From contig NZ_BATR01000044.1 of assembly GCF_000739655.1 (NCBI RefSeq), forward strand, positions 1 to 51,030: a stretch of DNA of 51,030 nt. The letters are read 5' to 3'. Shown here piece after piece: positions 7,717 to 27,317 of this stretch (position 1 is the stretch's first letter; every line of letters starts with the position of its first letter). The notes under the pieces are model-generated. The model had not been told where the DNA came from. It saw only the letters and a program-made list of their open reading frames with translations, and ran no database searches. Position numbers and translations under genes: made by a program. Source of the DNA: Verrucomicrobium sp. BvORR106 (GTDB lineage: Bacteria; Verrucomicrobiota; Verrucomicrobiia; Verrucomicrobiales; Verrucomicrobiaceae).

Positions 7717-8766
7717 TCAGCGCCCCATCTCCCGGAACTTGCCCCCGCTGCGCTGGGCGAGGCGACGCCAGGTGGCGTTGTCCTCCGGCCGCATCTGGAA
7801 GCCGATGAAGTGGATGGGCACCTCCTTACCGGCGGCGGCCTGGAGACGCTTGAGTTGTGCCTCGAACTCATCGCCCGGCACCTTGCGGTTGCCATCGGTG
7901 GGGGTGGTCTGCTCGAAGCTCCCGTCGGAGATCAAGAAGATGGTGTCGGGCTTCAGGCTGAAGGCGTAGTCCAGCACAAAAGGAAGCCCGTTGGGGATGG
8001 TGGACTTCACCCCCTGACCACCGGCGGGCATCATGCCGCTCTCGTCCCACTGGGTTTCGATCCACTGGTGTGCCAGATCCTTGTTGGTGGGGCTGGCGGC
8101 CACCAGCTCTTCGCTGAAGGGCTTGAAGTTGCGCACGAACTGGATGATCGAGTAGCGGCAGTTCACGGGCAGCTTGCTGATGAGTTCAGAAGTTTCCTCC
8201 TTGATCCGCTCCAAGGGCACTCCCGAGGCCTTGGCCTTGTTCACCACAGAACCGGAAACGTCAAACAGGAGGAGGATGCGCCGGGCCTCGGTCTTGATGC
8301 CGAAGAAGCTGAGCCCCGTGCCACCCATGCCGCCGCTGCCGCGCCCCCCACCACTGCCCATGCCAGAACCCAAGCCGCCGCTGCCCACCATGCCGGAGAT
8401 CTGGTCGGATACGATCTGGCTCGGATCCAGCGGCAGGAGTTGGTCCATGTCGATCCTGGGCATCTCAGGCAGGGAGAAGGCAGTGGGCCGGGTGCTGACG
8501 ATGCGGTCGCTGAAGGTGGGCTTCGGTGCCATGGCCTCGTGCTTGGCCATGGTCATCTTGTGCTCACGGCTCTGCACCGGCACCCGGATGTCGCGGGTTG
8601 GCACGGTGAAGGTGGCCGGAGGTTCGGCGAAATAGCGGGCCACAATCCAGACCCCGGCCACGAACAGGCCGGCGATGTGCAGCCCCAGAGCCACAAGGAA
8701 AACGGTGACCAGCAGGCCGCGACGGCGGGGGCTGTGGCTGGCGGGGGCAGAGAGGGCGGCTTGCAT
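7717..8766 (-). CDS. TonB-like membrane-anchored VWA-domain protein
   Basis: 349 aa. A basic N-terminus (SPRRRG) and one membrane segment at about residues 17-44 give a TonB-like topology with the rest in the periplasm. Residues about 50-125 are a Pro-rich linker, 126-150 are a Gly/Ser/Met-rich spacer, and from about 163 there is a von Willebrand factor A domain with MIDAS motif D169-V-S-G-S173 and a later acidic LISDGSFE (D281). The gene is 12 bases after the second exbD. In ExbBD operons this place normally holds TonB or TolA. The sequence therefore suggests a proton-motive-force-coupled protein with a metal-dependent adhesion or assembly domain in place of the TonB C-terminus. VWA assignment is by motif; the coupling is inference. 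Confidence 0.75.
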   Translation of the reverse strand: MQAALSAPASHSPRRRGLLVTVFLVALGLHIAGLFVAGVWIVARYFAEPPATFTVPTRDIRVPVQSREHKMTMAKHEAMAPKPTFSDRIVSTRPTAFSLPEMPRIDMDQLLPLDPSQIVSDQISGMVGSGGLGSGMGSGGGRGSGGMGGTGLSFFGIKTEARRILLLFDVSGSVVNKAKASGVPLERIKEETSELISKLPVNCRYSIIQFVRNFKPFSEELVAASPTNKDLAHQWIETQWDESGMMPAGGQGVKSTIPNGLPFVLDYAFSLKPDTIFLISDGSFEQTTPTDGNRKVPGDEFEAQLKRLQAAAGKEVPIHFIGFQMRPEDNATWRRLAQRSGGKFREMGR

Positions 8767-8778
8767 GGGTATTAGGAA

Positions 8779-9231
8779 TTACTCAACCGAGGCCTCCACG
8801 GCCCCGCCGAAGGTGACGGCGCTGATGTGGGCCCGGGCACAGGCGTTCAACACATCCACAATGCGCTGGTGGGGCACGTCGTCATGGGGCACGAGGGTCA
8901 CCAGGGCCTGGCTGCGGGCGGCATCGGCGCTTTCCTTGAACCGCTTCAAGGTGGAGATCAGCTGGGGCATGTCCTTGTCGCCGGGGGCGCCCACTTTCAT
9001 CTCGTTGAGCAGGACCACACCCTTCTCATCGATCTCAATCCGCTGCTCGTCTGGGATCTCCACGGCCTCCGTCTGGGCCACAGTGCCCGGGAGCGTCATG
9101 CTCATGTCTCCCTCGGGCTTGGTCGGCTTGGAGGTCAGGATGTAGAAGAAGAGCAGCAGGAAGCACACGTCGATCATCGGTGCGATCTGCAGTTCCACCT
9201 GGGGATGTTCAATACGGCGGGGGACGGCCAT
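8779..9231 (-). CDS. ExbD/TolR family transport protein (second copy)
   Basis: 150 aa. One N-terminal membrane segment contains the family signature LQIAPMIDVCFLLLFF with the proton-path Asp at residue 21; the rest is a periplasmic domain. ExbD/TolR dimers sit inside the ExbB/TolQ pentamer and use the proton gradient to drive a periplasm-spanning partner. A GTG at 9258 would add nine residues and overlap the upstream exbD by 17 bases. The ATG at 9231 leaves a 10-base gap and gives the usual short basic N-terminus (MAVPRR), so it is preferred. It differs clearly from the other exbD, so the two may form a heterodimer. Confidence 0.88.
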   Translation of the reverse strand: MAVPRRIEHPQVELQIAPMIDVCFLLLFFYILTSKPTKPEGDMSMTLPGTVAQTEAVEIPDEQRIEIDEKGVVLLNEMKVGAPGDKDMPQLISTLKRFKESADAARSQALVTLVPHDDVPHQRIVDVLNACARAHISAVTFGGAVEASVE

Positions 9232-9241
9232 GGCAGGGGAG

Positions 9242-9685
9242 CTATTTGTTGTGGGCACCGAAGATGACGGTCACGGCCCCTGCTTCAGCAGCCATGTTCA
9301 TGACCTGCTTGATGCGTTTGGCCGGGGTGCGGCTGTCGGCGCGCACATAGACCTTGAGCGGCGGCACTTCTTTGAGCCGGTTCTTGAGGTGGGCCACGGC
9401 TTCCTTGTCGGTGACTTGACGGTCCCCGCTGAAGAGCTGGCCGTGCTCGTCGATGTTCAGCACATCGCGGTCACCTTTTTCCTTCTGCTCCGTGGCGGTG
9501 GCGGCCTTGGGCAGATCCACCTGCATCAATTTCATGCCCTGGGTCAGCTTGCCGGTGAGCATGAAGAAGAAGAGCAGCAGCATGGTGACGTCCACCATGG
9601 GGGCGATCTGCAGACCCACCTCCTCCACATGCAGCCGCTTCAGCGGGCGACGTGCGACTTCCTCGTCATTGTGATGCTCGGACAT
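9242..9685 (-). CDS. ExbD/TolR family transport protein (first copy)
   Basis: 147 aa. After a charged cytosolic N-terminus comes the membrane segment LQIAPMVDVTMLLLFFFML with the conserved Asp at residue 32, then a periplasmic domain of about 100 residues (NIDEHGQLFSGDRQVTDKE). It is the channel partner of the ExbB homologue encoded 42 bases upstream. Two dissimilar ExbD proteins in one operon occur in several phyla and suggest a specialised energised complex, not a simple TonB system. Confidence 0.9.
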   Translation of the reverse strand: MSEHHNDEEVARRPLKRLHVEEVGLQIAPMVDVTMLLLFFFMLTGKLTQGMKLMQVDLPKAATATEQKEKGDRDVLNIDEHGQLFSGDRQVTDKEAVAHLKNRLKEVPPLKVYVRADSRTPAKRIKQVMNMAAEAGAVTVIFGAHNK

Positions 9686-9727
9686 GGTGGTCGGTCAGGT
9701 GCGTGGCGTGCGGCTTCTTGATCCGGA

Positions 9728-10525
9728 TCAGGCGACGGCTTCGGCTTCGGCGTTCTGAGCTGCGGTGGAAAGGGTGTCCACCAGGTCATTGAGCGTCTTG
9801 TGCACGTCGGCCATGCCGCTCTGCACCATGCCGCGGAAGTAGAAGTACATGAACATGGCCGGGATGGCGAGCATGAGGCCGCCCGCGGTGGCCACGAGCG
9901 CCTCACCGATGCCGCCTGCCAGCTCCGTGGCCTCCGCCTTGCCGGCGGTGAGGGCGGAGAAGCTGGTGATCATGCCGCCCACCGTGCCGAGCAGACCGAT
10001 CATCGGGGCCATGACGGCGAAGGTGTTCAGGTAGTTCACCGTCACCATCATCTTCGTCTCCTCGCGGAAGCACTCGTCCGCCACGGCATTCTCCATGCCC
10101 ACCTTGCCCAGATCATGGCGGTGGTAGTTGATCTTCCCAAGGGCCGCCAGCATGGCGCGGCCGAAGAGGCCCGGGCGGCTGTTGCAATACTGGGCGGCAG
10201 ACTGCACATCGCGCTGCTGCAGGTGATTGCGCAGCGTGGTGACCATGTCATTGGGCATCAGCTTGCTCTTGGACTGGGTAAGCAGGCAGTAGAGGCCCAG
10301 CGCCAGGGTGGCGACGGAGCAGGCAGCGATGACGTGCATGATGGGCCCGCCTTCCTTATACAGGTCCAGCAGGGATTTGTCGGACTTGTGCGTGGTGTGG
10401 GCCGGGGCTTCGGCACCTGTCGGTGCCGATTGCTGGGCCACCGTGAAGCTCACGGAGCTGAACATGAGGAACATGCCGCCGACAATGGCCAGCGGGAGAA
10501 GGGTGGGGCGGAGCAGGTGCTTCAT
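9728..10525 (-). CDS. MotA/TolQ/ExbB proton channel family protein
   Basis: 265 aa. An N-terminal signal-like hydrophobic segment (residues about 8-30, ending SFTVAQQ) precedes the standard three-helix ExbB architecture: first helix IMHVIAACSVATLALGLYCL, a cytosolic loop with CNSRPGLFGRAMLAALGKI, then the two C-terminal helices including MAPMIGLLGTVGGMITSF and ATAGGLMLAIPAMFMYF. These carry the Thr and small-residue motifs that line the proton path. The extra N-terminal segment with a Ser/Ala/His linker is a known variation of ExbB. It works with the two ExbD proteins downstream. Confidence 0.92.
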   Translation of the reverse strand: MKHLLRPTLLPLAIVGGMFLMFSSVSFTVAQQSAPTGAEAPAHTTHKSDKSLLDLYKEGGPIMHVIAACSVATLALGLYCLLTQSKSKLMPNDMVTTLRNHLQQRDVQSAAQYCNSRPGLFGRAMLAALGKINYHRHDLGKVGMENAVADECFREETKMMVTVNYLNTFAVMAPMIGLLGTVGGMITSFSALTAGKAEATELAGGIGEALVATAGGLMLAIPAMFMYFYFRGMVQSGMADVHKTLNDLVDTLSTAAQNAEAEAVA

Positions 10526-10572
10526 GGCGGCTTGGGAAACAGGAAATAAAGGAAGGACAATGGGCGCTGGGT

Positions 10573-11646
10573 TCAGGGAGCGGGGGGCTTGCTGTTGCTC
10601 TCGGGTTTCGCGTAGCGTTTGCGGCGGGCGGATTCCGGCTCCTTGGAGGCTTCAGCAGCGGGCTTCTCCATGGGCTTGGCGGGTTCCTCGGGAAGCTCTG
10701 GAAGGGTGACAGGCACCTCCAACGGCAGCTTGTGCTTTACCAGAAACTCGCGTGCTTCCCCGGCCTCTTTGGCTTTGGGATAGAGATGCAGGATGTCCTG
10801 CGCACAATCAGCGGCCGCAGAGACGTTGCCATCAAACTCAAGCACAGCGGCGGCCTGCCACAGCCCTGCAGTGGCGGACTCCTCCTGCGTGCCGTGGAAG
10901 AGGGAGGGTTTGACGGAGCATTCGACCGATTCATGAAACAACCGATTGCGCTCCGGCACCACGAGATCGTCCTCCTCCCAGCGCGGGTTCTCTGACTGGA
11001 TTTGCTTCAGCGCTTCAAAGCTGTGTTTGCCCGTGAAGAGCAGCACGCGCACTGCCAGCCATTCGTCGGTGCTGTGGTCAGCCAGGATCTTTCTGGACTC
11101 GGCCAGGGCATCCTGGGAGCGGTTCAAGGCAACAAGCGTCTGTATCCTGGTCCAGCGGGCCTGGGCCCGGCGCTGGGGATTCCAGTCGTTGGAGATGATG
11201 ACGTCACAGATCTCCAGAGCTTTGGCGCGGACGGTTGGGGTGGGGCTGGCCATGCAGGCGCTGGCAAAGGCCAGGCCCAAGTCGCCACCGGGGTGATTGG
11301 GGCGGGCCAACAGCGGCAGGACCGTTTCCCAGCGGCTGGCCAGACGGGCTCCGTCCCTGGCGGCATCTGTCGTGCGCAACAGGGCGTGGAACTCTTCATC
11401 CATGACAAAATCGGCCGACCGGATCTCTGTCCAGGGCACGTCGCGGGTCATGAGGCCCGCGGCTCCCGCAGGCCGGTATTCAATGCGCAGCATTTCGGCG
11501 GTGCTGCTGACAATGCGGCAGGGTACGGCGGCACCGTTTTGCAGCACCACCACGTCGGACTTGGGGCCAGTGGGGGCTTGAGCAGAGAGCTGGCTCGCCG
11601 CAAGTCCAAGGCAAAAGCAGATGCTGAGGGCGGACAGCGTTCTCAT
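10573..11646 (-). CDS. secreted helical-repeat protein of the ExbBD operon
   Basis: 357 aa with a signal peptide (MRTLSALSICFCLGLAASQL, then SAQAP). Residues about 30-90 form a small beta-rich domain (VVVLQNGAAVPCRIVSSTAE, ending VPWTEIRSADFV), a pattern common in secreted proteins of this phylum. Residues about 100-300 are helical and TPR-like. The tail is Pro/Glu/Lys-rich. The ATG overlaps the stop of the preceding TPR gene by four bases (ATGA), showing translational coupling. Function is unknown; by position it is a periplasmic accessory of the ExbB-ExbD complex. Confidence 0.7.
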   Translation of the reverse strand: MRTLSALSICFCLGLAASQLSAQAPTGPKSDVVVLQNGAAVPCRIVSSTAEMLRIEYRPAGAAGLMTRDVPWTEIRSADFVMDEEFHALLRTTDAARDGARLASRWETVLPLLARPNHPGGDLGLAFASACMASPTPTVRAKALEICDVIISNDWNPQRRAQARWTRIQTLVALNRSQDALAESRKILADHSTDEWLAVRVLLFTGKHSFEALKQIQSENPRWEEDDLVVPERNRLFHESVECSVKPSLFHGTQEESATAGLWQAAAVLEFDGNVSAAADCAQDILHLYPKAKEAGEAREFLVKHKLPLEVPVTLPELPEEPAKPMEKPAAEASKEPESARRKRYAKPESNSKPPAP

Positions 11647-14534
11647 GGAATGGAGGAGGTGGAAGCCTGTGGTGTTTCGGCGCCTTCCTCAGGCCGACGA
11701 TCCCGCCAGGAGGGATCCCGCGAGTCCAGTAGGACGATCGCCTTCTGGTGCACGGGCTGGGCGGAGAGTTCCAGCCGCTCTGCGAGTTCACGGTAAACGG
11801 CCTCCGCCTTGCGCGGTTCATTCAGGCGGTCCAGTGCTTCGGCTCTTTTGAAGTAGGCCAGGGCCACTTCAGGGAGATACTTGCCATAGGAGACGTACAC
11901 GCGCTCAAAGTAGGCGGTGGCTTTGAGGTCCTGCTTCTGAGCGGTCATGAGGTCACCCAGCTTGAGCAGGGTGGTGGCCTTGAGCTGCCTCGGCACGGTG
12001 GGCATTTCCAGGATCTTTTCCATCTCGGCCTGGGCCTCTTTGTATTTGCCCTGGTCAACGAACAGCCCGCTTTTGATGGAGGCAACCTCCCCAAGCAGCG
12101 GGGAGTTGAGGGTTTCGGTCTCGAACCGGGCAAGCGCCTTGAGCGCCTCCTCAGGTTTCTTCTCTGACAGGGCAATCAAGCCGAGGCCGAGAAAGACGCG
12201 GTCTTTTTCAAAGGCTCGCGGATGCCACTTGCGCAGATCCACGTAGAGCTTGCGTGCCTCGTCCAGCCGGCCGGATTCGCGCAGGGCGTCCGCCACGTCC
12301 GCCACGATTCGGGGGCTGTGCTCCTTCGCGTTGAGGCGGGGGGCGAGTTCGAGGAGCCAGCGACGGCAGTTGTCAGGATCTGCCTTGCGCCAGAGCACCG
12401 CGCGGGCCCATCCGGTGCGCAGAGCCAGGAGGGGGCGCAGCGTGGCTGCCTTCTGCGTCAGATCACCCAGCCGGACCTGTAGTTCCTGCCTTCCCTCCGG
12501 ACCGGGATAGAGCCTGGGCAGGGCGGTCAGAATGTCTTCCACCCCTGGAGTGTCGGCCGTGTTGCCATGCTTCTCGATGGCGTCCCAGTAGGCAGTGCGG
12601 GCTTCTTCGCGTTTCCCGGCGCTGTCGTAGGTCCATCCGATCCAGTACACGGCCTCCGCTATGCGCATGCTGCGGGGGTTCTCCAGGATGAACCGCTCGT
12701 AGTGGGAGCGCATGGCGTCGAAGCGCTCGGCCAGATTGTAAATGTTGCCGGTACGGAACCAGGCGTCCTCGTGGAAGCGGGGATTGGCCACCCGGTCGAT
12801 GGTCTGGTAGGCGGCGATCGCCTCGTCAATGCGGCCCTCGGCCCCGAGAGCATCTCCCAGCAGGAGTTTGCCCTCCTCCGCGTACTGGGAGCCACGATTG
12901 GCGGAGATGAATGACTGGAGTTCGCGGATGGCGCGTGGATACTCAGCCAGGCCGAAGCTGGAGAAGGCGATGCGGAACTGGGCATCCTGCGTGTAGCGGG
13001 CGTGCTGGGGGTAGCGCTTCAGATACGCCTCCATCTGGCTGCGGGCCTGGGCGTGCTGCTTGTCGAAGGATCTGCCCATCCCCGTCCAGTAGAAGGATTC
13101 CTCAATCAGATCCGTGGCGTTGGGATGTTTCTTGGGCAGCTCAGAGAAGGCATCTTCCGCCTCCCGGTTGAGATCCTGCTCCAGCAGGCAGATGCCTTCC
13201 ATGAACAGGGCTCGTGCTGCCATCTCGTGCTGTGGGTGTTTCTGGTGCACCTCGGCGAAGATCATCTCCGCGGCGTCTGGACGATGGTCGCCCTGCAGCG
13301 CGCTGGCTTTGAGGAAGAGCACCGTGGGCAGTTCGTCGGGGCTGGTGGGGCCGAACTTCTCAATCCACGTGTCCGCGGCGGTGACGGCCTTGTCCCAGCG
13401 CTGGATCTGCATCCAGCACTGCACCAGGCTGAGAGTGGCCTTTTTCACCACGTCATCGGGCGGCATGCGCTGCAGCATGTCATCCAGGATGAGGGCGCAC
13501 TCACGATAGCGCCCCAGATCCCGGTAGGCGCTGGCGATGCGAAGCCTGAGGGCAGGATCGAAACTGGGTAGTTTCTCGAACTGCTCCAGCTCGCGCTGGA
13601 TGCGGGAGATGAGAGACTCGTACTGAAACGCCAGATACTCCTGACCAGGCGTCTTCCTGGCCACCTCCAGTCGCGTGGTAAAGGAGGCCAGGGAGGCCTG
13701 CTGCGTGCTCAGGAGTTTCTCCCGGTTCCAGATCCTCTGGAGCACGTAGATCGCGTCATAGCTCTTTCCCGACTCCAGCAGGCGGGAGCCGAGCTGCAGA
13801 CAGAGGGTGTGGTAGGCCACCGCTTGGGTAATTTCCTGAACATGCGGGGCGGAGTCTTTTACCAGCGCCAGCGCTGCCGCATCATCATTGCTTTCCAGCA
13901 GGGCATGGAGCCTGAGTACCGTGGCCCGGCCCGCGGCCTCGCGGTTGACCTGACGGAGCGGGGCGATCTGGCTTCCGAAGAAAGTGGCTGCGCCCTTGAA
14001 GTCGTCCTTCATAATGAAGCACATGCCGTACAGGACCACGGACTCTGTCCTGCGCCCGGCATGCACTCGCCGCTGGACCTCGTTGAGGCGGACGACGTAG
14101 GGCAGTTTCTCCCCGTAGAACTCTCCAAATGCCTTTTGGGCTGCATCAAAGTCCTGCACCTGGAACTGGCAGATGCCTTTCCAAAAGGCAAGCTCATCAC
14201 TGGAGCCGGGATCAAGTTGCGGATCCTTGAGCACCTCTTCCAGCAACGGCAGCGTCTCGGCGTACTTTTTCTGCCGGAGCTTGGTGCTCACAAGAAGGGG
14301 CTTCATGCGCTTGGCGGCCTCGGCTGTCTCCGCCACGCCTCCGTAGGTGTCGATGAACTTGGTGAAGAGCGTTTCCGCTTGGGCCCAGTCCCCTGCATCA
14401 AATGCGGAACGCGCCGCATTGAAGAGCTCCGTGGGAGTCAGTTCCGTCGCATCCTGGGCTTCAGCATGGCGGGGTAGTGCGAAATTGAGCCACCACAACA
14501 GGAGCAGGATGAAGGAGGTGGTGGGCTTCAGCAT
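11643..14534 (-). CDS. large periplasmic TPR protein of the ExbBD operon
   Basis: 963 aa with a signal peptide (MLKPTTSFILLLLWWLNFAL, cleavage near HAEAQ). Almost the whole length is tetratricopeptide-like helical hairpins, for example LFNAARSAFDAGDWAQAETL at the N-terminus and AYFERVYVSYGKYLPEVALA near the C-terminus. It is the first gene of the operon. TPR proteins accompany Tol systems (CpoB/YbgF) and are frequent beside exbB/exbD in Verrucomicrobiota and Planctomycetota; they act as periplasmic scaffolds. A scaffold role here is inferred. The C-terminal about 30 residues (RDRRPEEGAETPQ) look unstructured. Confidence 0.8.
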   Translation of the reverse strand: MLKPTTSFILLLLWWLNFALPRHAEAQDATELTPTELFNAARSAFDAGDWAQAETLFTKFIDTYGGVAETAEAAKRMKPLLVSTKLRQKKYAETLPLLEEVLKDPQLDPGSSDELAFWKGICQFQVQDFDAAQKAFGEFYGEKLPYVVRLNEVQRRVHAGRRTESVVLYGMCFIMKDDFKGAATFFGSQIAPLRQVNREAAGRATVLRLHALLESNDDAAALALVKDSAPHVQEITQAVAYHTLCLQLGSRLLESGKSYDAIYVLQRIWNREKLLSTQQASLASFTTRLEVARKTPGQEYLAFQYESLISRIQRELEQFEKLPSFDPALRLRIASAYRDLGRYRECALILDDMLQRMPPDDVVKKATLSLVQCWMQIQRWDKAVTAADTWIEKFGPTSPDELPTVLFLKASALQGDHRPDAAEMIFAEVHQKHPQHEMAARALFMEGICLLEQDLNREAEDAFSELPKKHPNATDLIEESFYWTGMGRSFDKQHAQARSQMEAYLKRYPQHARYTQDAQFRIAFSSFGLAEYPRAIRELQSFISANRGSQYAEEGKLLLGDALGAEGRIDEAIAAYQTIDRVANPRFHEDAWFRTGNIYNLAERFDAMRSHYERFILENPRSMRIAEAVYWIGWTYDSAGKREEARTAYWDAIEKHGNTADTPGVEDILTALPRLYPGPEGRQELQVRLGDLTQKAATLRPLLALRTGWARAVLWRKADPDNCRRWLLELAPRLNAKEHSPRIVADVADALRESGRLDEARKLYVDLRKWHPRAFEKDRVFLGLGLIALSEKKPEEALKALARFETETLNSPLLGEVASIKSGLFVDQGKYKEAQAEMEKILEMPTVPRQLKATTLLKLGDLMTAQKQDLKATAYFERVYVSYGKYLPEVALAYFKRAEALDRLNEPRKAEAVYRELAERLELSAQPVHQKAIVLLDSRDPSWRDRRPEEGAETPQASTSSIP

Positions 14535-14664: not shown

Positions 14665-16455
14665 CTAGCGGCCTGCTTCCTGCTGTTTGCGTTTCTCCTG
14701 CGCTGCCGCACGAGCGTTCGACCTCTCCTGGGTTTTGCGATCCAGTTCGCTGAGCACCGTTTCAGCCGCGGCTTTTTCACGGGTCACTTTTTGATGGACT
14801 TCCTGTCGCAGCAGTTCGTCCTCAAGCACCTGCCCGTCGGCCACGAGTCGCGACCGGAGCAGTGAGTACTCGAGTTCGGCCACGTCCACCTTGTGCTCGA
14901 CAGCCAGGGCGGCGGCGGTGCCAGCGCTTTGACCCAGCACCATGAGGACCACTTCATTGCGGAATGCGGCCTCGGCCACGTGGGAGGCGCTCACACAAAC
15001 CGGAACCAGAAGATTGGTGCACTCTTCGGGTTTGGGCAACAACGCCTGGAAGCCGACCGGTTGGGGAGGGAAATCCAGCTTTGTGGGTGCCTCAATGGCG
15101 ATGCGACCTTCCTTTGTGGCGAAAGGCAGAGAGGGGCTCCATTGAGCGCTGCCAAAATTCATCCCCACCGGGTCTCCGGAGGACTCCTCACCCCGCAGGT
15201 GCTTTTCGGTCAGCACCAAGGTTCCGACGAGTCGGCGGATGCCTGGCACGCTTGTAGACGATGGCCAGGATCCTTGGTCACGCCATTCATCCCGACACAG
15301 GCCCCACTCCTGCAACCGCTTGCGAATGGGCTCTGGAACTCGTTCGTCGTTCGCGAGGGTCCAGAACAGGCCCATCAGATGCTCCCGCTGGCGGCGTGTG
15401 TTTGTGCGATTCGTCTGGCGATCGGCGGAGGGCAGTTCTGCCGGTGCGGTGTTGAACAGCGGAGCCAGTTCCAGTCCAGGAACCAACCTCGCCTTGCCAT
15501 TGGGAAGGGGTTCAAGGTGAAACAGTGACTTGGCATCCAGCTTTCCCGCTACGCGGACGAGCAGTTCATAGTCTGCGAGATCGTACTTTTCGGGCTTGGG
15601 CCAGGGCAGGCGATTCGCAGCTTCTTTGGTCACACAAAGCGCCAGCGTGGCTGTTGGAGGGGCGGGGCTGTCGGCACCCGCTTCACCAGCGGCGGAAGCG
15701 GCGACGCCAGGGAGGAGCGGACTCTTGGCGTCCCCTTCAATGACATGGGCGTCGAGGTTCCACTTGGCCCATTTGCCTTCGGCATCGACGGGGCGGATGC
15801 CATTGAGCGTCTCTCCATAGGTCACATTGGCCTCCCTGCCGGTGCGGAATGTCACGCCCGCCTGGGCCATGAGCTGGCCGTCGTGGCTGGCATCGAGGAA
15901 GACCTTGCCTGCATACACATCGTCACCTCCAAGGTGAATCGAAGTGAGACGTCGTTCCTCTTTTGCCACGCCATCCTTCGCGTTCAGGGAACGCCCCAAA
16001 ATGACGTGAACCCGGGCTTCGCGAAGCATGTCATCCAGCACCCGCCCCGCCACATGGGGCTCACAGGTCCACATCCGCTGGTTGTCCGGCTCTGATGTTG
16101 CGGGTGAGAACCCCGCAAAAGAATCGCGCTTCTGGAAGGTCCAGTGTGCATCGTCAGTATACCAGCTCCAGATGCGATGGTGGAACTCGCGGGCGATGCC
16201 TCCGACCAGATGGGAGTACTTCGGCTCCATGACGGTGCCGCCGTTCGTGAGCTGACCGCCCAGATGACGGGAGGGTTCGATCAATGCCACCTTGCGCCCC
16301 ATTCGTGCTGCTTGAATGCTGGCCGCAATGCCTGCGGGGCTGCCGCCATAGACCACCACGTCATATTCATAGGTGGCGGCGGTTGCACCGGTGAGGCCAA
16401 AAGCAGATGCCGCCAGCAGCGGGATCAGGCGAAGGGGGACTGAGGAAAGAATCAT
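14665..16455 (-). CDS. secreted FAD-dependent oxidoreductase with charged C-terminal tail
   Basis: 596 aa. A signal peptide (to about residue 25, GATAA) is followed by the FAD-binding Rossmann start YDVVVYGGSPAGIAASIQAA with the GxxxxG pattern GGSPAG, then RKVALIEPSRHLGGQLTNGG. This matches the FAD_oxidored family that is expanded in Verrucomicrobiota and Planctomycetota; substrates are mostly unknown. Residues 550-596 form a highly charged, probably coiled-coil tail (ETVLSELDRKTQERSNARAA) that is not part of the catalytic family and is shared with the protein encoded directly upstream. It starts 45 bases after that gene, so the two are co-transcribed. Confidence 0.85.
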   Translation of the reverse strand: MILSSVPLRLIPLLAASAFGLTGATAATYEYDVVVYGGSPAGIAASIQAARMGRKVALIEPSRHLGGQLTNGGTVMEPKYSHLVGGIAREFHHRIWSWYTDDAHWTFQKRDSFAGFSPATSEPDNQRMWTCEPHVAGRVLDDMLREARVHVILGRSLNAKDGVAKEERRLTSIHLGGDDVYAGKVFLDASHDGQLMAQAGVTFRTGREANVTYGETLNGIRPVDAEGKWAKWNLDAHVIEGDAKSPLLPGVAASAAGEAGADSPAPPTATLALCVTKEAANRLPWPKPEKYDLADYELLVRVAGKLDAKSLFHLEPLPNGKARLVPGLELAPLFNTAPAELPSADRQTNRTNTRRQREHLMGLFWTLANDERVPEPIRKRLQEWGLCRDEWRDQGSWPSSTSVPGIRRLVGTLVLTEKHLRGEESSGDPVGMNFGSAQWSPSLPFATKEGRIAIEAPTKLDFPPQPVGFQALLPKPEECTNLLVPVCVSASHVAEAAFRNEVVLMVLGQSAGTAAALAVEHKVDVAELEYSLLRSRLVADGQVLEDELLRQEVHQKVTREKAAAETVLSELDRKTQERSNARAAAQEKRKQQEAGR

Positions 16456-16500
16456 GAGGACGGATCAGTAAGTCGTCGGGGTGAATCGCTGCGGCCCAGC

Positions 16501-17340
16501 TCACCTTTTGATTTCGGGAGCGCGTTGTTTCTGCCGCTGTGCCCGGGCCTCTGCCCTTTCCTGGGTCTTGCGTTCAAGTTCCTTCAGCACCCATTCCGCA
16601 GCCTTGCGCTCGCGGGCGATCCGTTGGGCCACTTCCTTCTTCTTCAGATCCAGTTCTTCATCGACGGTGCCACGTTTCCGATCAGTGATCACCACTCCGT
16701 TCAATCGTGGGTTCTCCAGGTCCACGTAGACCACGAGATAGACGTGGTCCTCTGTCAGAGGCTCGTAAGGAGCCATGATCTCACTGCCCTTGAAGGTCAG
16801 GGTAAACCTGCCAGCGGCTGCCAGCTCGGTCAGGTGCATGGGCTGAAGGGGCTCAAGCGTCAACTCCGCTCCATTCAATGCCAGAGACTGGGCGCGTGAC
16901 TGAGCGTCGCAGTTGAGCAGCGTGAGCGTGGTTTTGCCTGGCGAAGGAAGATGCTGAAGCGGGAGCAGAACGAGCTTGGTGATCGGGGCGCTGCCGTTTT
17001 CTCCTTTCACGACGAGCGCGTGCACCAGGAGATTGAGCCGCTCGTTGACCTTCAAGACGAACTTCTGCTCCACATCGGCAGGGCATGTGGGATGAGACAC
17101 CTTGACCGTCACAGAACCGGGCGTGACGGCGCATTCTCCTGTTTCACCGCCTTTGGACAGAGCCCGGGATTCATCCTGCTTGTTATTGGTGAGGACCGTC
17201 ACCTCACCTTCCAGACCGGTGACGTTCACCACATTCACATAGGCCGACGGCGGCGGTGGCGCAGATTCGCTGGGCGATTGTGCCAGCAAGCCCCGGGTCG
17301 TCAGGCTGCAGGCAAGCACGAGGAGCATGAGAGTGCGCAT
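16501..17340 (-). CDS. secreted protein of unknown function with shared C-terminal tail
   Basis: 279 aa from the ATG at 17340. An ATG at 17367 would add nine residues and overlap the previous gene by 17 bases. The signal peptide is MRTLMLLVLACSLTTRGLLA. The body is beta-rich and I recognise no family. The last 46 residues (from about 234) align without gaps to the tail of the FAD oxidoreductase, identical at about 23 of the first 40 positions, with the core EL(E/D)RKTQER in both. The gene follows pseudopilin A by 10 bases and so belongs to the pseudopilin operon. Confidence 0.7.
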   Translation of the reverse strand: MRTLMLLVLACSLTTRGLLAQSPSESAPPPPSAYVNVVNVTGLEGEVTVLTNNKQDESRALSKGGETGECAVTPGSVTVKVSHPTCPADVEQKFVLKVNERLNLLVHALVVKGENGSAPITKLVLLPLQHLPSPGKTTLTLLNCDAQSRAQSLALNGAELTLEPLQPMHLTELAAAGRFTLTFKGSEIMAPYEPLTEDHVYLVVYVDLENPRLNGVVITDRKRGTVDEELDLKKKEVAQRIARERKAAEWVLKELERKTQERAEARAQRQKQRAPEIKR

Positions 17341-20300: not shown

Positions 20301-20470
20301 TAGTCGTTGAAGTGTGAACGCGAAACGGCAAGTTCCGTGTTGTTGGTGGCGAACGAGCCGACCAGCAGCACGACAAGAAGCGCCAAGATCATGATCGTGG
20401 CGATGAGGGTGAAGCCTTTCTGGCTTCGCTTTCGGCGCTGCGCCGATGACGCAGGGGATGGCAGCTTCAT
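17351..20470 (-). CDS. Verru_Chthon cassette protein A, GspK-like pseudopilin
   Basis: 1039 aa. A prepilin leader ends RSQKG, followed by FTLIATIMILALLVVLLVGS. The position normally held by Glu5 is Ala, as in GspK/PilX minor pilins that cap a pseudopilus. After the helix comes SRSHFNDYRTTLAVESAFRA. A C-terminal segment GLVNINSASPEVIRSLVAGV resembles the helix-hairpin-helix (SAM-like) region of GspK. The protein is far larger than GspK (about 320 aa), with long polar inserts. Start and the stop of cassette gene C overlap as ATGA (20467-20470). Verru_Chthon cassette A to D families are known from Verrucomicrobiota genomes without assigned function; the GspK relation is my inference. Confidence 0.85.
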   Translation of the reverse strand: MKLPSPASSAQRRKRSQKGFTLIATIMILALLVVLLVGSFATNNTELAVSRSHFNDYRTTLAVESAFRAATRKAFRQIEKSGDFVVFRRQQTGSSASHLRPVVYLTAAYDPATNQWQYQPLISGAKTTLTTPTLVPRPGGNTLETAVMDTGEKFNEFTKFIPGTGAGGWSDTPLAPRWEYLDFRPDAAGTAPLTANPNDPRAKGQDLRVRYCYWVEDLAGKLDGDLVGNTSGPNSTHLRGQLAKSEDQLRQVALFTLFPPTPGVPGTTFPNLDNSTTSLQDNDLINKRHYALTNDTYKQVGMSTSAAELMLKKNINFSLPAGMEHEVIPRKASIASSMWGKPKLAINKLIERAESDTSATGSGERHAAITELAEHIKSSLPNFARTRAGGNVMNTGLNSAYQGAPYGKLMTEDEYVYSLAANIIDYADRDQTPSVDPSWVKSTTTTGYGLGDTNVPKYRGIDLQPFCVGYATRFLNSAWDDSSVTMQVSVWVALWNPTDREIEGDLEVRFTEGRTVVNCMLQGENIAGGSRPVLPHLNLPLKHISLGPNECIHVPWYDVHTLRATGLTKARIQDPNFRMCPDDAAGIQSLFDGGYQIFWNGKLADRTRRPDGINRPYRQPSSTNDKAGLGKWFFASSGIGDSSQPAGDPRGTLYTAGLASSGGDASGNRGYYYREAKYINNCFWGGGAVKSTFGDSFNPAQWLSDPGHQVQSNQFNSAPLETETPDIHLQQRPVTTPPLPEKAPSHLKHPIDDYPPNYTGPGYYESLAELGNVFDPNAWTRASGGGSQHFQGGGSTLRIGSPELTPFNTPGTRASDLLDILCLDEKRTFKGLVNINSASPEVIRSLVAGVEIRSERAILNGVETTTDGIIRNGGATSGAVFHPCSNINTGAGSVLAKGISDLATANPGTVLATPGDLSALMVANPSSPTTQIPYFGNVNTWPTVATADIPSPPTMRPAVVGADPSLDDRGREEFYRRLLPLVTFQSRTFRMYLVTQVLDKNSNVVGMRPKVLDILLEPIYDTAGKVIGQDVQIAYEKNL

Positions 20471-21498
20471 GGTTTGTTGATGGCGACGGAAGTATTGGCA
20501 AAAGAGAGCCCTTGGAGCTCGGCAGGAGTGAGCACCTGATCGGCACCGGCAAATCCATCGAGCTTGCCGTCGCTGATGTCCCGCTGGGCATTGGTGCCGA
20601 GCGTGGCAATGGTGGAAGGCGTCATGCGGGCCAGTTTGGCAGCGTCCGCGACGACGAGGCGTACTTCGATGACATCCGGTGCGGAGTAGTCGGGATCGTA
20701 CTCAGCTGACTTGGGCAGCGGGCCGACGTGCTCCGGGGAGAGGTTGGGCCGGGGCCAGGGATCTGTGGCTACGCCGGCGATTCTCCCAGTAAGGATGTTC
20801 TGCAATTGCAAAGGGGTCATGGGAGCTCCTGTTGGTGAAGCTACCTGTCGGCGCAGCCGCATGGGAACCACCTCGAATGCCATGACCCGCATTCCCAGGT
20901 TCTCGGAAACTGCCTCCGGGACGGAGGTGCCAGTGCCGGAGGGAATGCTGGCGTCTTTCCAGGGCTGGTCTGCCAGACTCGGCGTTGTGGGCACCTGGGG
21001 GGTGACGGTGGGGGCGGCTGCATTGATGAAGCCGTCAATGCGTGCTTTCACAGCCTTGTAGGTGGCGTTGCTGTCACTGAAAGTTCGGACCAGCGGACGG
21101 TCTGGATGCGTGGTGTCGAGTCTGTAGGAAATAATGCAAAGATCGCTCTTGGGGGTGGTGGCCGCCTGGGAGGAGGGATCTTGAGAAAGCTGGTCCTGGA
21201 CGGCCAGGAAAGAGATCACCGAAGGGCTGCCCGGCCCGCCGGGAACGATATAAAACGGGACCAGCCCTTTCTTGCGGTCACCACGGGTGAACATCGCTTT
21301 GACGTCTGACTGAATGAGGCCGAGAAGGGACCGGGTTTCCTGGGCTGCGTCCGTCTTGCGCCGCAAGTTCACCCAGAGATCCTGTGAGGAACCCAGCACC
21401 TGCACAAGCAGGAGCAGGAGCACTGAAGATACCGATGCTGCCACCATGATTTCCACCAAGGTGAAACCACGGAGCGGGCGCAGGGGTTGAGTAGTCAT
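20467..21498 (-). CDS. Verru_Chthon cassette protein C, GspJ-like pseudopilin
   Basis: 343 aa from the ATG at 21498. The open frame runs further upstream but those residues overlap gene B in another frame and have no family character. The prepilin site is PLRG then FTLVEIMVAASVSSVLLLLL, with Glu5 present. The following helix (DLWVNLRRKTDAAQETRSLL) and the pattern of an aligned LIQSDVKAMF match the GspJ/PilW type. It lies 58 bases after gene B and overlaps gene A by four bases. Confidence 0.87.
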   Translation of the reverse strand: MTTQPLRPLRGFTLVEIMVAASVSSVLLLLLVQVLGSSQDLWVNLRRKTDAAQETRSLLGLIQSDVKAMFTRGDRKKGLVPFYIVPGGPGSPSVISFLAVQDQLSQDPSSQAATTPKSDLCIISYRLDTTHPDRPLVRTFSDSNATYKAVKARIDGFINAAAPTVTPQVPTTPSLADQPWKDASIPSGTGTSVPEAVSENLGMRVMAFEVVPMRLRRQVASPTGAPMTPLQLQNILTGRIAGVATDPWPRPNLSPEHVGPLPKSAEYDPDYSAPDVIEVRLVVADAAKLARMTPSTIATLGTNAQRDISDGKLDGFAGADQVLTPAELQGLSFANTSVAINKP

Positions 21499-21556
21499 GC
21501 CAGAGGGGATGAAGGAGTGAATGCAGAGGCGGAAGCGGCTCGCGGGAGTGTCCGGA

Positions 21557-22183
21557 TCAACGGAACTCCATAATCCTGTAGAACTCGTATTTGCGGCGGT
21601 ACTGCCGGGCGAGATTCGCGGGGGCTTCGACGCTGACCATGACCCTTTTGACAACTCCGGTGCCAGCGGGCGGGGCCACGGGGGGCGTTGCTGGGGTTTG
21701 ATAGCGGGACTCGTCTGCAAACGAGAGGCCCACCAGGTACCGGCCATCAAGCTGATCGGAACCATTTTCATACAGGGTGGACGAATCCGTGCCACCAACG
21801 GAGATGGCAGCAAGGTTCTCAGAAAATACCCATGTGAACGGCGTGTTGTCGTACCGTTCTGTCGCAGGCGCAATCTGGACGCCGTACGGAGTTGTCGGGC
21901 TGGTGGCAGGGTTCAGGGTGCGGTTACGGTCATCGTTTGCGGCACCGCTTTGTGGCTGGGAAAGGTCTGTGAACACCTTTGCGGCGAGTTGACTGGCCGC
22001 TGTCATTTCGCGGTTGGTCATGGCGAACTCTGTGGTGATGGCAGTGAGGCCCATCAGCACCAAGATGGAGCCACCAAAGATGCCCATGGCGATGGTCACT
22101 TCGATAAGAGAGAAACCACTGGCCACCAGGCGGGAGAGCTGGGTGCGAGAACCCGGCCCGGGTTTGCAAGTCATGATCTTCAT
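21557..22183 (-). CDS. Verru_Chthon cassette protein B, GspI-like pseudopilin
   Basis: 208 aa. The leader ends SRLVASG and the mature start is FSLIEVTIAMGIFGGSILVL, a canonical type IV prepilin site with Glu5. The sequence following (TTEFAMTNREMTAASQLAAK) resembles GspI/PilV minor pilins. Its ATG overlaps the stop of gene D by four bases (22180-22183). Confidence 0.87.
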   Translation of the reverse strand: MKIMTCKPGPGSRTQLSRLVASGFSLIEVTIAMGIFGGSILVLMGLTAITTEFAMTNREMTAASQLAAKVFTDLSQPQSGAANDDRNRTLNPATSPTTPYGVQIAPATERYDNTPFTWVFSENLAAISVGGTDSSTLYENGSDQLDGRYLVGLSFADESRYQTPATPPVAPPAGTGVVKRVMVSVEAPANLARQYRRKYEFYRIMEFR

Positions 22184-22956
22184 GGGACGTTTGGAGTTGG
22201 TAATCCCGCAGCGGTGTCATCGTAGTACCGGCTGATGCCGGTAAGGCGGGTCATGCGGACACCTTCAATTCTTGGAGGGTTGTGGCTCGGGGCCACGCTG
22301 GTAGCTGTTCCGGCTAAATCCACATTTCCTTCAACTAGCAGCACATCCAGATTCGGCACCACAGCTGAAAGCCGGGGGGATGCCACGGCCCCGTTGGGAG
22401 CAAAGACGATTCCTGGCAGCATCTGGGTGGCATTGCCGGACATGAAGCGAAGCTCGACCTCCGGGTATCCGGCACCTGAGATGCCACGGACCCTGTATTG
22501 GTCCAGCGTCAGAGGGAGGTCGAAAATCGTTGGTTTTCCTGCCAGACCTTTGGCAAAACAAACTCCGTCGGGCAGACTTTTCCATTCCGTCACTTGTTGT
22601 GAAATGGTGGCGTACTGACCATCCGTGCCGGGAGCACCCACTTCAAACACTGCGTACTTGGAGAGGTTCAACGGCTCAACGGACTCTGGCGGCACCCCGT
22701 CAACCACCATCAGTGCCACATACTTGCGCGTGGCGATGGCGTGGGCGCGAGCCTGGTCCAGCGTCCCTTTCAGCGAAGTTACTGCTGTCTTCCGCCTGGG
22801 GGTGGACATGTTGGAGAGGCCGGCGATGCTCACTCCCATCAGGATGGCGATGATCGCCATCACAACAGTGACTTCCACCAGCGTCATGCCAGCGGAGCGG
22901 GTGCGGAGATGCGGTTGCAGGTAACAACCAAATGAGCCTGAGCGAGGGGGTCTCAT
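22180..22956 (-). CDS. Verru_Chthon cassette protein D, GspH-like pseudopilin
   Basis: 258 aa, first gene of the cassette. The prepilin site is RSAG then MTLVEVTVVMAIIAILMGVS (Met in place of Phe1, Glu5 present). The continuation LKGTLDQARAHAIATRKYVA is the hallmark of GspH/FimT minor pseudopilins. The prepilin peptidase and assembly ATPase are not in the window, so the cassette must use machinery encoded elsewhere. Confidence 0.88.
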   Translation of the reverse strand: MRPPRSGSFGCYLQPHLRTRSAGMTLVEVTVVMAIIAILMGVSIAGLSNMSTPRRKTAVTSLKGTLDQARAHAIATRKYVALMVVDGVPPESVEPLNLSKYAVFEVGAPGTDGQYATISQQVTEWKSLPDGVCFAKGLAGKPTIFDLPLTLDQYRVRGISGAGYPEVELRFMSGNATQMLPGIVFAPNGAVASPRLSAVVPNLDVLLVEGNVDLAGTATSVAPSHNPPRIEGVRMTRLTGISRYYDDTAAGLPTPNVP

Positions 22957-24662: not shown

Positions 24663-27317
24663 ATGGACAAGTTTGTTTACTCCTCTGACAAAGAAATGTG
24701 CCGATCAAGAAGATCCGCAGATCGAAATAGCACGCCAAGAAAGGTGGGTCACATCCAGAAGTCCCTGTTAGTCAGTGGACTTGTGGCTTTGTCGGTCATC
24801 CTGACGGGCACTGTGGCCTCCGCGGTATCATTGACAGTTGGCGATGCCGGAACACACTCTGTTCTGTACACAGACTTCACACTTGGGAGCAACCCCATCG
24901 CAAATCATACTGGTTCGATCAGTTCTTCACAAGCTGGCGGCTCTTATGGGATCGGGAGCCAGAATGCAGTCGCGTCTGTGGCATCCGGCAGCTTTGCAAC
25001 CCCGGGGTTTTCGCTGACCATTACCAATAATACGGGGTCCATCCTCAATTCGCTGACCTTTGAGGGGAGCCTCATTGTCTTCAAGGACAACAGCAGCAAC
25101 CTCAATGAGGCGTTGACGGCGTCCGTGGCTTCAGGACCCGCGGTGGATGTCAGTGCACTAACTCTCCGTTTGGGGCCATTCAATGACGGGAATGGTACAT
25201 CGACCGTGTTCACAACTCCCAAGACCGCTGCATTTGATGTGGACATTCTCGGGCTCAACCTCGGAGTCGGACAGTCCATCACTATTCGGTGGTTGGATTC
25301 AAATGACGGCGGTACTGACGGTATGTTTGGTATCAAGGATCTGTCGCTGAAGTGGGACGTGGCCACAGTTTCGGTTGTCAACTACTGGGACAGCAATGGA
25401 GCCTCGGCAGGTGTTGGCGGAAGTGGTGTTTGGACTCCGTCCAGCCTCAACTGGAACAACGACGTTGGTACCGGAACGCCGGCGGCGTTTGATCCGACGA
25501 AGGAATTGGTTTTTGGTGGTACAGCAGGAACGATAGCACTGGATGATTCAGCTGGGGTGATTGAACACGATCACAATCTTAAGTTTGCATCCGATGGCTA
25601 TGTTCTCGAAGGTGGCGCACTGGGGCTTGTCGGATCATCGGGTTCGCCGACAATCTCAGTCGCTACCGCAGGCCACACTGCGACAATCAACAGCATCATT
25701 TCGGGATTCAGCGGCCTCACCAAAGCTGGTCTGGGCAAGCTGGTGCTGGGTGGTGACAACTCTTCCACCTTGATTGGTGATATTGGCATCAATGGTGGGG
25801 TGCTTCAGATCAGTACCGAAGAAAATCTCGGGGATGTCAGCAACAAGATTGTTTTCGGAGGGGGTACACTTGCCACTACGGAGGACATCAGTCTGGACGC
25901 CGCCAGAGAGCTCGCCGGCAGTGGCGGGCTTGATGTGGCTGACGGGAAAACTCTGACGGTGAATGGAGGAGCCACTTTCACCGCGATGACCTTCTCCAAT
26001 TCCGGCACGGTCGATCTTCAAGGTGCCACCAACGACTTGGGCGCAGTCACCTTCTCAGGCAATGCCACTCTGAAGGGCAATGACGCCATCGCGGCCAACA
26101 TCACGGCCAACCAGACAGGGACGGCAACCATTCAGAACAACCTCCTCCTCGGGGCTGTTGATCGCACCATCACCGTGAGCAACGCGGCAGCTGTGCTGGC
26201 CTTGCAAGGCACCCTGACAGGAAGCCGGATCATCAAGGCCGGCGCTGGTACGCTGGAAGCTACTGGAGACAACGCAGGACTCTCCCTTGGTTTCCAGTTG
26301 GGCTCTTCAGCTGCCGCTCCCACCAATGGCGGCACACTCAAGATTGGACATAAGAACGGCCTGGGCACCACCGCTCAGTTTCGGTTCAACTACGGCACCC
26401 TGCATGCAGTGACGGATTTGACGGGAGAGAATGCGTTGGCCAACAGCCTCAGCATTGGGGGGCGTGCAGGTGCGGCGGCAAATTTTGACGGTAGCAACAT
26501 GGAGATCAACGGTACGGTGGGCTTCTTCCGTGGTACAGGCACCACGGGGCAACTGGAGTTGAACACCATGAATACGACCACTCTCAGCGGTGACAGGGCG
26601 GCGGACTCTGGTACGGGAACCGTGACAGGCATCACTCTTGGCGGCACGGGCAAGCTGATCCTAAACGGCAACTGGAGCACCAACACCTATGCCGTCACTC
26701 TCGCCCAGTCCGTCACCACAGAAATCAACAACCTCTTCACTGGCAATGTCACGGTGGGGGATGGCAATGCCTCCGGTGGCACGACGCCGACTCTCCAGGG
26801 GCGGGGCACGCTCACGGGTGCGGTGACGATCAACTCCGATGGCCGTCTTAAGATCGGGAGCACGGGGGACACCACGGCGCGGGTCATGACCATCTCTGGC
26901 AACCTGACCAGCTCCGGCACCATGGAGTTTGATCTGTTCTCCGGCAGCAACGGCGGCGAGGCGGGGTCATCGGACAAGCTGGCCTTCGGCAGTGGCACCA
27001 CGTCCGTCAATTTGTCCGGCACCCTGGTGATCAACAATGCGGACCTCAATTTTGGCACCCAGCCTTGGGCCAACGGTTCCTTCTGGCAGCTCATTGACTG
27101 GGGCACGGTGCAGCAGGCCAACCGCACCGTGAACTACAGCACGATCACGCTTCCGGAGATCGCTGGCTATGAGTGGATCAACACGCTGGGCACGGACGGG
27201 CGCATCACTCTTTCGGCGGTGCCGGAGCCGGGCCGCATGGTACTGCTGCTTCTGGGCGGTGGCCTCATGCTGATCCAGCGCCGCCGTCGCCGTCAGGAGC
27301 GTCTTGCCGTAGTTTAA
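24663..27317 (+). CDS. PEP-CTERM protein with autotransporter-type beta-strand repeats
   Basis: 884 aa. The N-terminus is an extended signal peptide: about 30 polar residues, then QKSLLVSGLVALSVILTGTV. The body is Gly/Asn/Thr-rich with repeated beta-strand units typical of the autotransporter-associated strand repeat, such as GLTKAGLGKLVLGGDNSST and RIIKAGAGTLEATGDNAG, so a parallel beta-helix is likely. The C-terminus has the three-part sorting signal: VPEPGR, hydrophobic MVLLLLGGGLMLIQ, and a basic RRRRR cluster. Such proteins are processed by exosortase and placed on the surface or in the extracellular matrix. No outer-membrane barrel domain is present, so it is not an autotransporter. It is less GC-rich at its 5' end than neighbouring genes. 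Confidence 0.87.
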   Translation: MDKFVYSSDKEMCRSRRSADRNSTPRKVGHIQKSLLVSGLVALSVILTGTVASAVSLTVGDAGTHSVLYTDFTLGSNPIANHTGSISSSQAGGSYGIGSQNAVASVASGSFATPGFSLTITNNTGSILNSLTFEGSLIVFKDNSSNLNEALTASVASGPAVDVSALTLRLGPFNDGNGTSTVFTTPKTAAFDVDILGLNLGVGQSITIRWLDSNDGGTDGMFGIKDLSLKWDVATVSVVNYWDSNGASAGVGGSGVWTPSSLNWNNDVGTGTPAAFDPTKELVFGGTAGTIALDDSAGVIEHDHNLKFASDGYVLEGGALGLVGSSGSPTISVATAGHTATINSIISGFSGLTKAGLGKLVLGGDNSSTLIGDIGINGGVLQISTEENLGDVSNKIVFGGGTLATTEDISLDAARELAGSGGLDVADGKTLTVNGGATFTAMTFSNSGTVDLQGATNDLGAVTFSGNATLKGNDAIAANITANQTGTATIQNNLLLGAVDRTITVSNAAAVLALQGTLTGSRIIKAGAGTLEATGDNAGLSLGFQLGSSAAAPTNGGTLKIGHKNGLGTTAQFRFNYGTLHAVTDLTGENALANSLSIGGRAGAAANFDGSNMEINGTVGFFRGTGTTGQLELNTMNTTTLSGDRAADSGTGTVTGITLGGTGKLILNGNWSTNTYAVTLAQSVTTEINNLFTGNVTVGDGNASGGTTPTLQGRGTLTGAVTINSDGRLKIGSTGDTTARVMTISGNLTSSGTMEFDLFSGSNGGEAGSSDKLAFGSGTTSVNLSGTLVINNADLNFGTQPWANGSFWQLIDWGTVQQANRTVNYSTITLPEIAGYEWINTLGTDGRITLSAVPEPGRMVLLLLGGGLMLIQRRRRRQERLAVV

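Follow-up and report, generated by a model that had tools for sequence, protein, structure and literature searches.

Why two neighbouring proteins with unrelated bodies should end in the same C-terminal tail is the question raised by a pseudopilin operon of Verrucomicrobium sp. BvORR106. To our knowledge, no tested role has been assigned to the many pseudopilin cassettes of Verrucomicrobiota. The window, by which is meant the whole stretch of 51,030 bases analysed here, is one contig of the 8.69 Mb genome of this strain (G000), and it carries a minus-strand gene run in which four prepilin-like genes (22956 to 17351) are followed by the genes of protein B and of an FAD-dependent oxidoreductase (the FAD protein), and then by a TPR/ExbB/ExbD/vWA-like group (Table 1). 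The end of the VcA-like gene overlaps the start of the protein B gene by 17 bases, and 45 bases lie between the protein B and FAD genes. Between 14300 and 17600, the promoter scan found none where 0.7 were expected, and the terminator scan found three against an expectation of 2.5. The FAD protein and protein B are both probably exported.

Table 1. Coordinates of the features of the operon in the window, with the evidence for each.
Feature	Position	Strand	Evidence
VcD-like pseudopilin	22180..22956	-	ORF list, profile match
VcB-like pseudopilin	21557..22183	-	ORF list, profile match
VcC-like pseudopilin	20467..21534	-	Profile match; the mechanical ORF begins at 21873, start chosen by the analyst
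VcA-like / GspK-like large pseudopilin, 1039 aa	17351..20470	-	TIGR02600 24.4/332.3 bits; GspK 17.8/130 (score/cut-off)
Protein B, cassette companion, 288 aa	16501..17367	-	Weakly DUF4397-like body, residues 1-230; signal peptide by inspection
Tail B, C-terminal tail of protein B, residues 238-288 (aligned core 238-282)	16504..16656	-	Alignment and predicted helix
FAD-dependent oxidoreductase, 596 aa	14665..16455	-	PF12831 FAD_oxidored, residues 32-537; signal peptide by inspection
Tail A, C-terminal tail of the FAD protein, residues 545-596 (aligned core 545-589)	14668..14823	-	Alignment and predicted helix
TPR-protein/ExbB/ExbD/vWA-like group	14534 down to 7717	-	Gene run after the FAD gene

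Several neighbours of the operon deserve mention in their own right. An S1/P1 nuclease gene (PF02265, 23396-24367) adjoins the cassette, and in locus L110 such a gene (4612-5799) comes directly after a relative of B; upstream of both cassette and nuclease, on the opposite strand, lies a PEP-CTERM protein with an autotransporter-type repeat (24663-27317, plus strand). The TPR/ExbB/ExbD group (7717-14534) is 43-67% identical to its counterpart in the congener G003 (locus L016, 10262-17077), with 84% for the vWA-like protein, while the adjoining pseudopilins and B reach 89-95% in the same comparison and the group itself reaches 91-100% against a further congener, G001; it may have been exchanged as a block.

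The original prediction held that the two tails align without gaps (about 23 of 40 residues identical) on bodies that are otherwise unrelated, and both statements are borne out. In a composition-adjusted BLASTP comparison of this pair, the aligned cores match ungapped with 25 of 45 residues identical and 35 of 45 similar (E 9e-11); measured from the first aligned residue, the tail has 52 residues in the FAD protein and 51 in B, of which 45 are aligned. Outside the tails, BLASTP between the two proteins gives nothing better than E 2.6, and no likeness was read by eye in the flanks beyond the stop codons. Residues R, K, E, D, Q and A account for 69% and 76% of the tails, a bias from which two such ends might resemble each other by chance or low complexity alone, as the original prediction had itself considered. 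Yet 35 residues still align after low-complexity masking (E 4.5e-8), and the local score of 120 is reached by none of 5000 shuffles (mean 37.8, sd 6.2, maximum 74). When 294 segments of 55 residues, each at least 60% R/K/E/D/Q/A, were drawn from 2565 ORF translations (duplicates included), the highest score apart from that of B's own tail was only 54 against tail A and 49 against tail B. The similarity is moreover conserved in three species. Chance or composition was rejected as its source, and the tails have a common origin.

How old this likeness is can be read from the codons. Tail A and tail B agree at 28, 34 and 18 of 45 first, second and third positions, respectively (18-19 at the third position over the comparisons), and dS between them is 1.4-2.1, which is saturated, with dN 0.41-0.44. 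A recent duplication of DNA was rejected on the third positions. Between species, dN/dS in three comparisons is 0.03, 0.10 and 0.15 for tail A against 0.14, 0.21 and 0.16 for the FAD body, and 0.08, 0.12 and 0.06 for tail B against 0.05, 0.11 and 0.07 for the B body; the tails are short and single values therefore noisy, but the overall level is similar to that of the bodies and not below it, tail B being slightly higher than its body in two of three comparisons. Because the tails are about as constrained as the bodies while synonymous sites are saturated, an old copying event is indicated, after which both copies were kept at the protein level; one gene end was apparently copied onto the other long ago. 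Adjacent genes in the same orientation are the simplest place for a gene end to be copied, which would also suit a non-functional remnant of a local duplication; such a remnant is, however, very improbable when the tails are held about as tightly as the bodies and their residues persist in spite of saturated third positions.

The distribution of the tail is narrow. A search of the BvORR106 genome with tail B at E<=10 matched these two genes and no others. In the genus-mates G001 and G003, the latter a single contig of 8.22 Mb, the same operon carries both tails on the same two genes, and a search of genome contigs with B returned one locus, in the genome of Verrucomicrobium sp. BvORR034. Tail profile A1, built from the six tails of the two genes in G000, G001 and G003, matched three of 68 family genomes at E<=0.1 and no third gene of these three. 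Among 387 genomes of the phylum, convincing matches were found in G000 and G001 only, G003 presumably not having been drawn into this sample. Four further genomes of the phylum gave five matches (E 0.0027-0.0068 per genome), which were set aside as chance among 387; four of the five contain stop codons, and the fifth, in G287, lies in an open frame of 1013 aa. A fourth genome of the genus (G002, 76% complete) yielded neither tail, nor B, nor a TIGR02600 match. Comparison of the tail with Pfam gave nothing better than E 0.03, and with PDB nothing better than E 1. Thus, the tail is neither widespread nor unlinked to cassettes, and a Verrucomicrobial sorting tag of wide use was rejected, the tail being limited, among convincing matches in the genomes searched, to two adjacent genes in three Verrucomicrobium genomes.

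The FAD protein itself belongs to a common family. It matches PF12831 (FAD_oxidored) well above the gathering score (243.8 bits against 27, profile positions 1-416 of 416), and 47 of 57 genomes, G000 included, match it at E<=1e-20; apart from the orthologues of the congeners, these relatives are at most 41% identical among the matches listed. The 28 related hits in 27 opened loci all pass from a '...DGQVL'-like end into other sequence, which is Golvesin_C in L021, the one scanned, and tail A begins where this passage occurs; a shorter relative, in L206, ends at about the same point. Body relatives are absent at E<=1e-5 from the 23 stretches that carry other cassettes of G003. The idea that the FAD protein is generally tied to B was rejected, a FAD_oxidored gene being found near B just once outside the genus (L206), where it is tail-less and separated from B by an opposite-strand ORF of 466 codons.

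Profile searches indicate that the body of protein B is a wider, unnamed family of its own. A profile from six members (A3) matches 14 of 96 genomes, G000 included, and one from sixteen members (A6) matches 73 of the 288 genomes searched in the order, which is a lower bound because at most ten candidates were scored per genome. Weak whole-B matches in G023 and G008 proved to be true relatives; one in G021 (residues 207-269, E 0.003) was set aside, with no match to the tail profile at E<=0.1 and none to the B-body profiles. The 82 copies of B collected lie in 74 loci, and a VcA-like pseudopilin gene is found on the same strand at 68 of these (72 of 82 copies), a count to be read with the VcA profile having been drawn from 12 of the 74 loci, which match by construction, and with the loci themselves having been picked by B alone. 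In most such loci the open frames of B and the VcA-like protein touch or overlap; the six without a same-strand VcA-like gene are L181, L201, L202, L206, L207 and L210. From this recurrent neighbourhood it may be inferred that B works with pseudopilins.

The tail is no part of that wider family. Tail B begins where the family body ends, a point that is uncertain in weak B matches, and the tail profile matches none of 79 copies of B in the 71 loci outside Verrucomicrobium (E<=0.01; the copies in L114, L166 and L191 are cut by contig ends). A tail-bearing FAD protein in the operon is likewise found at none of these 71 loci and at the three Verrucomicrobium loci only, with the proviso that 16 of the 74 loci (L155-L170) extend just about 1.5 kb past the match and others stop at contig ends, so that a distant flavoprotein would escape. 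Because these 71 loci lack both the tail and an operon flavoprotein, the tail is not what generally gives B access to the pseudopilus, and its distribution points to its having come with the recruited flavoenzyme.

Whether other proteins near such cassettes share an end in this manner was asked with a control set of 334 genes (548,754 bases) made up of the window, L016 and, from G003, two flanking stretches together with the 23 that carry other cassettes; the set covers the G003 cassettes that were fetched and not every one of that genome. At E<=1e-3, it yields 21 pairs of proteins that are alike at the end but not in the body. Four of them are the FAD/B pair within and across two species, the sole pair found inside one locus. 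Seventeen proteins make up the remaining 17 pairs, L135|6413 alone taking part in 13; fifteen of these proteins exceed the TIGR02595 PEP-CTERM cut-off, and L116 (14.1) and L118|64 (15.6) fall just under its 16 bits and also read PEP, hydrophobic, basic. In this set, therefore, shared ends other than those of the FAD/B pair are PEP-CTERM ends. A passage of PMC1569441 gives sixty-five PEP-CTERM for V. spinosum. The FAD/B tails resemble PEP-CTERM as a C-terminal tail common to unrelated proteins, and differ from it in having neither a PEP motif nor a hydrophobic helix and in having two carriers only; the last 80 residues of the FAD protein and of B match no NCBIfam family at E<=0.1.

These distributions weaken one of the two uses first proposed for the tail, that of a tag which the pseudopilus would read for sorting or docking. 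Both tails might dock to the same third partner, for instance a pseudopilin of the operon, and thus serve in cargo delivery or localisation; one tail on two proteins is just what a tag looks like, the genes of the operon overlap or are separated by short gaps, and a VcA-like gene accompanies B on its strand at nearly all loci. However, a tag would be expected to label a range of clients or to be indispensable to B wherever it occurs, and neither is the case: the tail profile finds no copy of B at the 71 loci outside the genus and no third gene within the three genomes, and the ends shared in the 23 stretches with other cassettes of G003 are PEP-CTERM only. Two users in one operon make a poor tag, and docking to a common partner is accordingly a rather doubtful, though still considerable, alternative.

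The predicted structure of the tails leaves more than one use conceivable. AlphaFold2 gives one continuous helix per tail, at residues 235-282 in B (block-mean pLDDT up to 90) and 543-595 in the FAD protein (up to 87); the runs used two-row alignments, with useful confidence only in the tails and partly in B's signal helix, and the body models (mean pLDDT 42.3 and 31.7) are unusable. In one register, V, V/I, A, V and L line up on the same side of either tail, but 213 of 2000 shuffles attain this hydrophobic heptad contrast when the tails are pooled (400 for A alone, 246 for B alone); for the first 35 residues the numbers are 351, 887 and 228 of 2000 for both, A and B, respectively. The hydrophobic moment is reached by 97 of 2000 for tail B and 471 of 2000 for tail A. 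For the coiled coil that had been suggested, continuous helices are thus predicted, while the heptad contrast is not significant and so does not support a classical coiled coil. As to charge, tail B is clearly basic (about +7) and tail A nearly neutral (+0.9), and both finish in a basic end (net +3 for the last 17 residues of the one and +4 for the last 16 of the other).

Such charges would also suit binding to something anionic, which counts against an association of the tails with each other. The tails might then be charged helical extensions, spread by a convenient copying event, that bind an anionic surface loosely (LPS, polysaccharide or nucleic acid) or aid stability. The C-terminus of B seems to be clade-specific: ten f2 relatives (L201, L202, L204-L207 and L210-L213) carry a conserved LPPWM motif at the end, in most cases with Lys or Arg after it, and many f3 members have short, mostly acidic ends. 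Because these ends differ by clade, B's C-terminus appears to tolerate various additions. No LPPWM-type end was found on a second protein in the stretches scanned, except for an evidently spurious frame of 71 codons in L107. What speaks against a loose extension is that 22 columns are invariant across all six tails, uncharged ones among them, and that the likeness sits at specific residues, which is more than loose electrostatics needs; this alternative is unlikely.

The reading preferred here, with a probability of roughly 0.4, is that the tail is an association module that joins the flavoenzyme and protein B and arose by gene-end copying. Before the lineages of the three Verrucomicrobium genomes diverged, a gene for the flavoenzyme would have come to sit behind B in the pseudopilin operon; a helical tail of about 50 residues would then have become common to both proteins by copying of gene end onto gene end, in either direction, and selection would since have kept both. 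Tail would meet tail, A with B and perhaps each also with its own kind, and the flavoenzyme would thus be held on B, the usual partner of pseudopilin genes. The dimerisation module of the original prediction is favoured to this extent because the tail occurs where the flavoprotein does and nowhere else, a co-occurrence that amounts to one evolutionary event in three related genomes and not to a repeated association; the pairing itself we only infer. Since the tail arrived with the flavoprotein and is common to exactly two neighbours, joining these two is its simplest use.

With regard to known systems, the Verru_Chthon label first given to the cassette is not borne out by the NCBI cut-offs, by which it is a distant relative and not a member. 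Like Verru_Chthon (TIGR02600, TIGR02599, TIGR02598 and TIGR02596), it has four adjacent prepilin-like genes in the order D-B-C-A, with partial, mostly N-terminal matches to the models; unlike it, it has B as a companion and scores far below all four curated cut-offs, the VcA-like protein as given in Table 1 and the VcB-, VcC- and VcD-like proteins at 15.2/51.4, 29/256.5 and 25.7/70 bits. Pfam N_methyl is above its cut-off for the VcC- and VcD-like proteins only and below it for the other two. Elsewhere, the BvORR106 genome carries many TIGR02600 members above the cut-off; TIGR02600 matches number 34-38 per genome in G000, G001 and G003, some of them fragments of a single gene. An open-access literature search returned nothing on the Verru_Chthon cassette, on pseudopilins of Verrucomicrobium spinosum or on DUF4397 in Verrucomicrobia.

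The cassette can instead be described, from its profile matches, as a distant GspH/I/J/K-like set. With the GspH-I-J-K proteins of type II secretion and the minor pilins of type IV pili it shares weak matches, in the window or in relatives, to GspH, GspI, GspJ, GspK and PilX_N; it differs in that cut-offs are reached just by the generic N_methyl/IV_pilin motifs and by GspH in L013, at threshold (21/21 bits). VcA relatives from L012 and L108 score slightly higher with GspK than with TIGR02600, and that from L013 the reverse, all below cut-off; VcA relatives also match PilX_N or T2SSK weakly. For protein B, DUF4397 (PF14344) is the sole Pfam match at E<=0.1 and the PilY1 families give none; the body of B resembles DUF4397 weakly (E 0.015), as do two of sixteen B relatives at E<=0.01 (best 5.7e-5), and the B of the window remains below the gathering score (16.3 against 30.6 bits).

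As a frequent non-pilin companion, B gives this type of cassette a fifth part to study, and one genus that seemingly ties an enzyme to B provides a natural experiment, a direct and cheap test of what the cassette handles. A parallel is PilY1, which forms a tip or priming complex with minor pilins (PMC7541494), and B is likewise a non-pilin protein encoded with minor-pilin-like genes. A bolder and quite improbable proposal is that B would serve as the fifth core component, and as a tip partner resembling PilY1, in a GspHIJK-like pseudopilus not described before; in Verrucomicrobium the duplicated helix would fasten the flavoenzyme to B, and the pseudopilus would thereby bear an oxidoreductase, either in the periplasm or at its tip. 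Should B stand at the tip as PilY1 does in type IV pili (PMC7541494), the pseudopilus would have the flavoenzyme as its passenger.
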